Source: Phycisphaerae bacterium (GTDB taxonomy: Bacteria; Planctomycetota; Phycisphaerae; UBA1845; Fen-1342). Taken from it: a stretch of 64,000 nt of DNA. Numbering within the stretch: the stretch's first letter is position 1; every line of letters starts with the position of its first letter. The translations under genes were made by a program, and so were the position numbers. Under the pieces are notes generated by a model that was given only the letters and a program-made list of their open reading frames with translations, ran no database searches and had not been told where the DNA came from. The stretch lies in contig JANQNU010000070.1 of NCBI GenBank assembly GCA_028279405.1, positions 62,001-126,000 on the forward strand. The letters run 5' to 3'. Below are positions 2,292-29,699 of the stretch, piece by piece.

Positions 2292-2524
2292 CGCAACTCT
2301 CCAGCTCCAACCTCCAGCAGCAGTCTGTGCTGGACAGTTCTCAATTGTTCCAGAACATCGTAACAACACCAGCACACGGCGAAACCCAAAAAACGCTGTA
2401 ACATGCTGCAAAATTTGATGTTCTGTCCTTGATCAGAGACCGCCCGATTGCCTAAATTGTGCTGAGCACTGGGCTGCACAGCGCAACCAGGATGATAACA
2501 GCACCAATAGTGGAGTGGGAACAC

Positions 2525-3160
2525 ATGAGAAGTACCTGGATCTTCCTCGCGGCCATCTCGATCGCGCCGCCGGTCTCCGCAGACGTCCTGGTCGACTACG
2601 GAATCAACCTCGATGTCGGCCCCGGGTTCAACCTTGTCACTGGACCGACATATGCCAGTGGGCCGCAATGGTCACAGTATCAGTCGTTCTCGGTGCCCGA
2701 CGCCGACGGCTGGAATGTCGACTCGCTCGAGGTCGTCGTGCACACGTGGGCATCCAACGACCCGGACGCACTGATCCGTCTCGATATCCGTGCTGATGAC
2801 GGCACTGGCGTCCCCACCGGGCCATCACTGGCCGCAAACACCGTGCTGGCTGATTACTTCTTCGAGAGTGGACTACCTGTCGGGGGCTTGGAGACCGCCG
2901 ACCTCTCCGGGCTCCACTTGCCCGTCGGCGACTATGTAGTCATCGCGTCCGCCGCCGCACTTGGAAACCCGGCGCTGGATGCCGGCTGGATACAAGGCAC
3001 TCTCTCCGGCCCGGGCTCGACCGGATTCAACCACGACACCGGCGAACTCTTCCCGGGAACGACGCCGCTCTCAATGCGGATTAACGGCACCGTCGTTCCC
3101 GAGCCAAACACGCTGATCGCACTTGCAGTCGCGAGCCTCTGCACGCTCCGGCGCCGCTAG
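2525..3160 (+). CDS. Secreted PEP-CTERM sorting domain protein
   Basis: A 211-residue exported protein. It starts with a signal peptide (MRSTWIFLAAISIAPPVSA|D) and ends with the tripartite PEP-CTERM signal: VPEPNT, a hydrophobic helix, then an arginine cluster (RRR). In this system an exosortase is known to cleave the tail near the outer surface; none is encoded in this window. The mature part is rich in Gly, Asp and Thr, as in beta-sandwich surface proteins, and has no catalytic motif I can see. The in-frame ATG at 2525 was preferred over the upstream one at 2459 because it begins the signal peptide. Confidence 0.8.
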   Translation: MRSTWIFLAAISIAPPVSADVLVDYGINLDVGPGFNLVTGPTYASGPQWSQYQSFSVPDADGWNVDSLEVVVHTWASNDPDALIRLDIRADDGTGVPTGPSLAANTVLADYFFESGLPVGGLETADLSGLHLPVGDYVVIASAAALGNPALDAGWIQGTLSGPGSTGFNHDTGELFPGTTPLSMRINGTVVPEPNTLIALAVASLCTLRRR

Positions 3161-27514: not shown

Positions 27515-28411
27515 TCAACGCGGCTGCAGCACGGCCCCGACGTGCAACAGGCTCACGAACTCGGTGAAGAATGCCCCGAACGCCTCCGTCTCGTCGCTGA
27601 AAGTATCCGCGGCGTGCGTCACAAACACCTGTGCCAAGTCATTGATGGTTGCCGGCGTTTCGGGCTCGATCGCCGCGAGTCCGGCAAGCAGCGGCGCCGA
27701 CACCGCCTGCCACATCGGCATCAGCTCGGCGTTTCGTCCGCAGACAGCGCAGATCGACATCTCAGCCGGCAGTGGTCTCGGCAACGTCTGCTCCCGACGC
27801 CAGTGATTCGCCAATGCGATCAGGTCATATGCGTACTCGCGCAGTGCGACGTACCCGGGCCGCACGATCGGCTGGGCCATCAGCTCGCCGACACTCATCG
27901 TCGCGAGCGTTGGCGGCGCGATGGTCTCCGCGAGTGAGTCCGAATGATAGAGCACCTCGAGCTCGGTCCGCTCGAAATCGAGCAAGTTCGCCAATCCTAA
28001 CCATACACCGGCCAGATCCGCACGATCATGCACCAAGTATGCTTCGAAGTTGCGCGCCAGGTCGCGATGCGACGCACTCTTCCACGGACGGACACGATGC
28101 AAGTCGCGAACGAGCGCCAACTGCGCTTCGCGCACGGTCGCGCCGGCGCCACTCTCGATCAGCCGCGGCGTCACAACCGCCAACGACATCGGGAACACCC
28201 ATTGCAGAACAGCCCGTTCGCCGGAGAAGATCAGATGCGTGTAAACCCCAAGCCGCTCCGGCGGAATGGCCGCCAGGTCGGCCCGTTCGTCGGCCGTCAG
28301 ATCCTTGAACCGCTCCCGAAACTCTGCACCCCGCGCGTCGGCGTTGCCCCCGGTTGGCGGATCGTCCAGAATCAACGTGCGAAAAGCTGCAAGAACATCT
28401 GCCAGCGGCAT
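27515..28411 (-). CDS. MNIO partner protein (BufC/HvfC, DUF2063-like)
   Basis: 298 residues, beginning two bases after the stop of the MNIO gene, so almost certainly translated from the same message. The N-terminal region 'IPPERLGVYTHLIFSGERAV' with 'LQWVFPMSLAVV' fits the pattern of DUF2063-type partner proteins that accompany DUF692 enzymes and help bind the precursor. A putative zinc-ribbon half, 'ICAVCGRNAEL', occurs near residue 228. The family assignment rests on position and general pattern more than strong motifs; a rejected alternative would be an unrelated helical protein. Confidence 0.6.
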   Translation of the reverse strand: MPLADVLAAFRTLILDDPPTGGNADARGAEFRERFKDLTADERADLAAIPPERLGVYTHLIFSGERAVLQWVFPMSLAVVTPRLIESGAGATVREAQLALVRDLHRVRPWKSASHRDLARNFEAYLVHDRADLAGVWLGLANLLDFERTELEVLYHSDSLAETIAPPTLATMSVGELMAQPIVRPGYVALREYAYDLIALANHWRREQTLPRPLPAEMSICAVCGRNAELMPMWQAVSAPLLAGLAAIEPETPATINDLAQVFVTHAADTFSDETEAFGAFFTEFVSLLHVGAVLQPR

Positions 28412-28413
28412 AT

Positions 28414-29262
28414 TCAGTCGTTCCCCACCGACGCCGAACCACACACCTCGTCCATGAGTTGCTGCGCCATCTCCGCTTCCTGCAGCAAGCGGGCCAGCGA
28501 CGGGATCTCACTGTCCCATTCGATCAGCACCGACGTCCGCCCGATGCGCTCGAGTACTTTTCGATACAGCACCCAGGTATCGTCGGCGACGGGTCGCGCG
28601 TGTGTGTCCAGCAGCACGTCGCCGAACTCTTCAAAGCCCGCGAGGTGCAGCTGACCGACGCGCTCGAGCGGGATCGAATCAAGGAATGCTTCCGGGTCAT
28701 ATTCCTGATTGCGTGCGTTGAGCAACACATTGGACACATCGAGCAACAAGCCGCAATCGGAGCGCTCGAGCACGCGCGTGATAAACTCCGCCTCGCTCAT
28801 TTGCGAACGCGACGGAGCAGCGTAGTACGTCACATTCTCCAGCAGGAATGGTCGCTCGAGGATGTCCTGGACGATCCGGACCCGGGCGGCCACGTTTTCG
28901 ATCGCCTCTTCGGTGAACGGCAACGGAATCAGATCGTTGAGATTGACATGATCGACCATCGTGAAGCAGAGGTGATCGGAGAACCAGCGACTGCCGATCT
29001 TGTCACAGAACTGCTTGACCCCCCGTACGTGCTCACGGTCGAGCGGGTCGGTGCTGCCGATCGAGAGCGAGACGCCGTGACCGACGCAGGGGTACGCAGT
29101 CGCCACCCGTTCCAGCGCATCCGCCAGGAACCCACCGCGTTGCAGAAAGTTCTCGGGGATAACCTCGAACCAGCCCACGGTCGGCCGGTCGGCGATGATT
29201 TCCTGAAGGTGCTGTCGACGGAGCCCGACGCCGGCGCCCAGCGCCGGCAAATTCGCGTACAT
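28414..29262 (-). CDS. MNIO-family (DUF692) multinuclear iron oxidative enzyme, BufB/HvfB-like
   Basis: 282 residues, a TIM-barrel enzyme of the DUF692/MNIO family. The family landmarks are clear: 'GVGLRRQHLQEII', 'FEVIPENFL', 'GHGVSLSIGS', 'WFSDHLCF', 'LLENVTYYA', 'CGLLLDVSNVLLNARNQ', 'QLHLAGFEE' and 'HARPVADDTW..Y'. The conserved His, Asp and Glu residues that bind the iron ions are present. MNIO enzymes are known to modify cysteines in short peptides, for example to oxazolone/thioamide or thiooxazole groups. It lies 116 bases downstream of a Cys-rich precursor gene and just upstream of its partner. Confidence 0.9.
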   Translation of the reverse strand: MYANLPALGAGVGLRRQHLQEIIADRPTVGWFEVIPENFLQRGGFLADALERVATAYPCVGHGVSLSIGSTDPLDREHVRGVKQFCDKIGSRWFSDHLCFTMVDHVNLNDLIPLPFTEEAIENVAARVRIVQDILERPFLLENVTYYAAPSRSQMSEAEFITRVLERSDCGLLLDVSNVLLNARNQEYDPEAFLDSIPLERVGQLHLAGFEEFGDVLLDTHARPVADDTWVLYRKVLERIGRTSVLIEWDSEIPSLARLLQEAEMAQQLMDEVCGSASVGND

Positions 29263-29317
29263 CTACAACGCCTCCGCGAGGGGGCCATGCAGCGGTTGCC
29301 CGCGCGCCCAATAGAGA

Positions 29318-29350
29318 AAGGCCATCGCGCCGAGCTCGGCGGACGGCCTT
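29318..29350 (-). promoter_or_regulatory. Strong stem-loop between precursor and MNIO enzyme
   Basis: On the minus strand, AAGGCC pairs with GGCCTT and an inner CGCCGAG/CTCGGCG stem stacks inside it. The sequence continues TTTCTCT, so it could be a partial terminator or an mRNA 3' end that makes the precursor transcript more abundant than the enzyme transcript, as is common in RiPP operons. Confidence 0.55.
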
Positions 29351-29378
29351 GTGTCTGAGCTGTCAGACGGTGCGAGCG

Positions 29379-29606
29379 TTACTTGCTGCCGCCGCAGCCC
29401 TTTTCGCCGCCGCAACCCTTCTCGCCGCCGCAGCCCTTTTCGCCGCTGCAGCCCTTGTCGGCCTTGCAGCAGGTGCCGTCCGTGCCACAGCAGCTGTCCT
29501 GCTGCGCGCAGCCGGTCGAGCTGAGAACGGTCGTGGCGCTGCCGGCGACCAATGCCGTGATCGCCATCGAACGAAGACCCGCAAAAGCAAGCTTCTTGAG
29601 ATCCAT
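29379..29606 (-). CDS. Cys-rich RiPP precursor, bufferin/HvfA-like variant
   Basis: 75 residues. An N-terminal signal peptide region ('LAFAGLRSMAITALVAGSA') leads to 'TGCAQQDSCCGTDGTCC', and then repeated units: KGCSGE, KGCGGE, KGCGGE, KGCGGSK. HvfA/BufA2-type precursors have repeated EGKCG motifs whose Cys are modified by MNIO enzymes; here the order is EKGCG(G). The gene is next to an MNIO enzyme and partner, so a secreted, modified, metal-binding peptide is likely. The start at 29606 is set by AAGGA seven bases upstream. The extra CC pairs (about 46-54) could also bind metal. Confidence 0.8.
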   Translation of the reverse strand: MDLKKLAFAGLRSMAITALVAGSATTVLSSTGCAQQDSCCGTDGTCCKADKGCSGEKGCGGEKGCGGEKGCGGSK

Positions 29607-29670
29607 TCCGAATTCCTTTCGTTGTGTCTGCTCGCACCTGAGAAACGTCGTGACATGACGAATCGGCGAG

Positions 29671-29699
29671 ATTCTAGCCAACGGGCCCCAGATTTCCAC
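29671..29699 (-). promoter_or_regulatory. Candidate promoter of the RiPP operon
   Basis: Minus-strand GTGGAA and TAGAAT (5 of 6 at -10) are spaced by 17 bases. The predicted start is about 60 bases before the precursor ATG. No obvious palindromic operator was seen. Confidence 0.4.

Follow-up and report, generated by a model that had tools for sequence, protein, structure and literature searches.

A captophorin/bufferin-like MNIO operon with a KGCGG repeat core in a Phycisphaerae bacterium

Results

Operon Anatomy and Transcription Signals

The window, a 64,000-nucleotide stretch of DNA from a Phycisphaerae bacterium (contig JANQNU010000070.1), carries on its minus strand one operon that encodes, in the order A-B-C, a Cys-rich precursor peptide, an MNIO enzyme and a partner protein (Table 1). 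All three genes and their order were confirmed, and the assignment, made in an earlier note on this DNA, to MNIO RiPP operons of the bufferin/HvfA kind was supported. The single promoter candidate of that note also stood: one σ70-like site was observed where 0.1 was expected. The GAAAGGA-type ribosome-binding site shortly 5′ of the precursor start is kept in the precursor genes of nearly all relatives; beyond it, no conserved operator was found in the 300 bp upstream of 11 precursor genes.

Table 1. Features of the operon, in order of transcription (positions are those of the window).
Feature	Position	Strand	Basis
Candidate σ70-like promoter, TGGAAA-16-TAGAAT	29671..29698	−	Consensus match only
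Leader end with GAAAGGA ribosome-binding site	29607..29626	−	Same element before nearly all related precursors
Precursor gene, 75 aa	29379..29606	−	ATG start, ribosome-binding site GAAAGGA; homologues in nine other genomes of the order
Terminator-like hairpin in the gap before the MNIO gene, imperfect T tail	29317..29350	−	Equivalents at 11/11 precursor genes
MNIO (DUF692; PF05114), BufB type, 282 aa	28414..29262	−	PF05114 and NF050167 scores
Partner, predicted PME fold (helical domain and RRE-type domain), 298 aa	27515..28411	−	Start by homology; AlphaFold model and fold match

Each of the 11 loci has a strong hairpin 3′ of the precursor gene, in most cases with a T run, and in eight of them it beats all 30 dinucleotide shuffles; the hairpin of the window is weak when taken alone (2/30 shuffles as good; z −1.9 over the whole gap) and its T run is interrupted. 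Such hairpins suggest a leaky terminator, which would give precursor in excess over enzyme and would also suit a precursor gene able to move alone. The long open reading frame of the partner extends from 27515 to 28444 and includes an internal ATG at 28411, 2 nt past the MNIO stop; the latter was taken as the start because all homologues start at its equivalent, and 28444 could be an alternative. The flanks of the operon showed no copper gene, DoxX gene or metal regulator, and the neighbors within the window (aldehyde dehydrogenase, deaminase, methyltransferase, phosphatase and others) offer no clue to a metal.

The Precursor Peptide

The precursor (MDLKKLAFAGLRSMAITALVAGSATTVLSSTGCAQQDSCCGTDGTCCKADKGCSGEKGCGGEKGCGGEKGCGGSK) consists of a signal peptide (called by eye) with a KKLAFxGL N-region, an STGC lipobox-like site (Cys33), two CC pairs (Cys39/40 and Cys46/47) and four repeats centered on Cys53, Cys59, Cys65 and Cys71, which brings the peptide to nine Cys. 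The repeats read ADKGCSG and then GEKGCGG three times, at a spacing of exactly six residues, and repeats within one gene differ from each other at third codon positions only. The KGCGGE motif and the CC pairs before it had been recognized in the earlier note, the first repeat being in fact DKGCSG. Its description of the core as a permuted EGKCG is right as to KGCGG; the core is better described as one of a [D/E]KxCGG hexamer family in which position −1 is free. Across the ten precursors of this branch, the core is the hexamer [D/E]-K-x-C-[G/S]-G, spaced by six residues in 33 of 34 intervals. Among its 44 repeats, a count in which the pattern also took in one CC site, Lys occupies −2 in 41 and the −1 residue is Lys in 24, Gly in 13, Ser in five, and Cys and Gln in one each. 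Close relatives carry DKKCGG or EKKCGG, in which Lys fills position −1 as well as −2.

The N-region, M-x-x-[KR]-[KN]-[LMI]-A-F-x-[GSN]-[LIM]-[RK], is conserved, also in precursor copies unlinked to an MNIO gene, whereas the segment that joins signal peptide to core shows no such conservation. This pattern fits a Sec signal peptide that serves as the RiPP leader, as PMC13419390 reports for HvfA and bufferin (after Junger et al., 2026). A Gly-Cys lipobox-like pair closes the signal peptide in 10/10 precursors, with Ser and not Leu at −3 in the window. LspA occurs twice in the genome, and other signal-peptide-like N-termini with Gly-Cys (about 750 kb of genome, crude gene calls) include TTGC and ATGC, with Leu commonest at −3. 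The precursor is a likely candidate for lipidation at Cys33; the lipidated oxazolin NedA is a precedent (PMC12636315).

The NCBIfam HvfA/KCGExKCG models match a gammaproteobacterial control but neither the window precursor nor its relatives. The BufA2 model NF050166 likewise did not match the window precursor; it did detect a CKGxGGC control from Phycisphaerae, though at 33.5 bits, short of its cut-off of 60. Nor did the precursor have any Pfam match, DUF2282 (BufA1 type) included. Among the hits listed in a literature search for KGCGG, KKCGG, EKGCG or DKKCG cores, there was no MNIO paper.

The MNIO Enzyme

Membership in DUF692, a point raised in the earlier note, is clear: the enzyme scores 341 bits against PF05114, and it reaches 324.1 bits against the NCBIfam BufB equivalog NF050167 (cut-off 310). 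The nearest solved structure by sequence is 3bww, and the catalytic Asp and the other candidate ligand residues are invariant in the 28 rows aligned. The window enzyme and most members of its branch retain Arg15 and Arg16, a pair linked in FonB with an acidic motif position 1 (PMC13097082). After the catalytic Asp, the window enzyme has Ser where FonB has Phe (Phe250). The enzyme shares its half of the tree with the EGKCG enzymes, is separated there from the Cys-Lys enzymes of its own class, and is ~44–48% identical to the gammaproteobacterial EGKCG enzymes fetched; the gammaproteobacterial relatives from the same search have EGKCG precursors.

Other Phycisphaerae encode MNIOs at 39–46% identity (L031–L041, L050), almost all of which follow a CKGxGGC Cys-Lys precursor; some of these precursors are near 160 aa, and one genome (G112) has two such operons. 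At two loci (L042 and L043, in G317 and G309), the MNIO gene is preceded by that of a membrane protein whose C terminus carries a GCGGGGCGG tail and which resembles TIGR04222 proteins.

The Partner Protein

The DUF2063 signature, suggested at the outset for the partner, was not borne out, with 17.0 bits against a cut-off of 27.2, though a PME fold is predicted. The HvfC model NF050145 also remained below its cut-off (35.3 bits against 142), and the PDB was matched by fold and not by sequence. The AlphaFold model (pLDDT 91) aligns over nearly the whole chain with TglI (8hi7; Z 14.9) and NGO1945 (3dee; Z 14.5), the next rows having a Z of 7.5; it is thus predicted to share their fold, a helical domain with an RRE-type domain, but at ~13–16% sequence identity and in a longer protein. 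Distance from the signature, and not a different fold, is the likely reason for the missed DUF2063 cut-off. By signature, the partner would be filed with the “PME-type 2” of PMC12452194, though its substrate carries a signal peptide and that study links signal-peptide substrates with PME type 1 (DUF2063) partners.

Co-occurrence of Precursor and Enzyme

The survey covered 114 genomes of the order, with a close MNIO defined as the window's own or one of 69–76% identity and the precursor accepted at E ≤ 1e-5. A close MNIO was found in ten genomes and the precursor in exactly the same ten, with 0 of the 104 others (hypergeometric probability 1.5e-14 assuming independent genomes; the genomes are not fully independent, and the ten span three families). 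The earlier note had held that absence of the small gene from homologous operons would speak against its reading; that refutation is rejected, a precursor being present in 10/10 genomes with a close MNIO. The nine homologues outside the window's genome are 41–63% identical to the window precursor. The gene lies directly before the MNIO gene in the window and in seven of the nine other close genomes; in the remaining two, G043 and G007, no precursor precedes the MNIO gene and one lies on another contig. Since the precursor co-occurs exactly with close MNIOs, even where unlinked in two genomes, we conclude that the gene is genuine and goes with the enzyme. In G007 (L012, about 2350–3000), the MNIO gene without an adjacent precursor directly follows a likely ribosome recycling factor gene.

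One operon shows signs of decay. The partner gene of G253 has an in-frame TAG where homologues have Trp (L013, 3837–4740), and the repeats of its precursor have lost their regularity (GCKG and GCGS occur, and one Cys is exchanged); in its congener G237, the partner is intact and the five repeats are perfect. As a single case, the broken partner and decaying core of G253 could reflect coincidence or sequencing error. A 3127-bp contig from a Deltaproteobacteria MAG (L015) carries an MNIO at 51% identity, together with a partner; this MNIO nests in the planctomycete branch through either gene transfer or a mis-binned contig, which ends before any precursor.

Origin of the Gly Before Cys

The enzyme tree requires three separate changes to KGCGG, in the window, in G253/G237 and in G608, the last belonging to another planctomycete class. 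A single clade of the window with G253/G237 was rejected (p-AU 0.023, for a group picked after the motifs were known). At the site of FonB Phe250, the window enzyme has Ser, those of G253/G237 and G608 have Phe, and the KKCGG enzymes have Ala or Val. A change in this pocket residue as the cause of KGCGG was rejected, since both Ser and Phe occur beside KGCGG (with Ala or Val beside KKCGG) and the residue thus does not track the Lys-to-Gly swap. Moreover, FonBC, which acts on EGKCG, accepts Ala, Arg and Thr as the residue before Cys (PMC13097082). Because KGCGG arose repeatedly, beside unlike pocket residues, and because FonBC is tolerant at this position, new chemistry is not indicated and the swap looks permissive. 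The proposal of the earlier note that the exchange of Lys for Gly may bring a different modification, metal or number of sites is therefore not supported: three origins share no change at the pocket site known to contact this residue. The core is more aptly derived from a KKCGG-like state, already with Lys at −2, by loss of the Lys at −1.

At the G608 locus (L074/L075), the core of the precursor lacks acidic residues (SKGCGGAKGCGG), the MNIO has Phe following its catalytic Asp, and a further open reading frame resembles the partner.

Discussion

Relation to Known Systems

The operon shares with those of HvfA/oxazolin, fontiphorin and gonophorin (EGKCG captophorins; PMC13097082, PMC13419390) a secreted precursor with tandem acid-containing Cys repeats, a BufB/HvfB-type MNIO with Arg15-Arg16, an RRE partner and the order A-B-C. 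It differs from them in its repeat, which is the six-residue [D/E]KxC[G/S]G in place of the five-residue EGKCG, with Lys at −2 and a variable −1 residue (Gly in the window), and in the absence of a GY-containing motif after the signal peptide and of a visible DoxX gene. The lipidated MNIO products (NedA, DAG-RiPPs; PMC12636315) are repeat-core oxazolins with a lipoprotein signal, a pattern that the window precursor may share; NedA, however, has EGKCG, the lipobox of the window is non-canonical at −3, and its lipidation is a proposal. The Cys-Lys bufferins (BufA2; CKGxGGC) depend on the same enzyme superfamily and occur in other Phycisphaerae, but their core differs and the window enzyme falls in a separate clade.

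Alternative Explanations

An operon of the same kind could make a different product, through another oxidation (e.g., oxazolone-thioamide), modified CC pairs or a metal other than copper. In its favor, a Gly preceding the Cys is uncommon in the substrates that have been tested, the pocket has Ser in place of Phe, and some MNIO products have been argued to serve other metals (PMC12452194); on the other hand, KGCGG arose repeatedly beside different pocket residues, FonBC is tolerant at −1, the characterized MNIO-PME1 pairs all make 5-thiooxazole (PMC13097082), and the CC pairs are missing in G253 and differ among other relatives, all of which makes this unlikely. Quite unlikely, too, is that the Gly is itself a functional switch, which would give the thiooxazole a neighbor free of a side chain and, possibly with modification of the CC pairs, lend a membrane-anchored peptide another copper affinity or metal preference.

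The nine Cys, CC pairs included, resemble a thiolate metal binder, and precursor and MNIO are unlinked in two genomes, as would be expected if the peptide stayed largely unmodified, as a lipid-anchored metallothionein-like buffer, and the enzyme acted on it partly or on something else; yet over 114 genomes the precursor is present where the MNIO is and nowhere else, linked or not, and the strict repeat spacing and conserved N-region are typical of a RiPP substrate, which leaves this very unlikely. That the small open reading frame arose by chance within GC-rich repeats, with some other substrate for the MNIO, is scarcely credible: GC content is high and long open reading frames overlap in other frames, but homologues at the protein level exist in nine other genomes, changes within the repeats fall at third positions, and the ribosome-binding site and hairpin are conserved.

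Proposed Mechanism

We consider it probable that this is a captophorin/bufferin-type RiPP operon that places 5-thiooxazoles on the core Cys (−4 Da each) for membrane-anchored sequestration of Cu(I). Its anatomy, enzyme family, predicted partner fold class and strict co-occurrence of precursor and enzyme are documented here; ring, number of sites and metal are transferred from characterized but distant homologues (PMC13097082, PMC12452194, PMC13419390). In this captophorin/bufferin-type operon, the promoter would drive mainly the precursor gene; at the leaky hairpin, some of the transcripts would continue through the MNIO and partner genes, which would leave more substrate than enzyme. The RRE-type domain of the partner would bind the signal peptide at its conserved N-region, which would serve as leader. 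The MNIO, a mixed-valent di-iron enzyme, would remove four electrons from each core Cys (Cys53, 59, 65 and 71), and each of these would close into a 5-thiooxazole with the carbonyl of the residue before it, which is Gly here and Lys in most relatives. Sec would then export the modified peptide, which would probably receive a lipid at Cys33 and be anchored in a membrane, where the ring thiols would bind excess Cu(I); the two CC pairs probably supply extra, unmodified thiolate ligands.

Implications

For the partner proteins, the operon is an apparent exception to the published association of signal peptides with DUF2063 (PMC12452194). The unlinked precursors, together with the one genome in which a disrupted partner gene goes with a decaying core, support the link between substrate and enzyme without recourse to biochemistry. 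The switches from Lys to Gly amount to a natural experiment, in which [D/E] at −3, Lys at −2 and a small residue or Gly after the Cys were kept and −1 was free. If the proposed product is correct, thiooxazole metallophores would extend to a planctomycete branch whose precursors are missed by current NCBIfam models.
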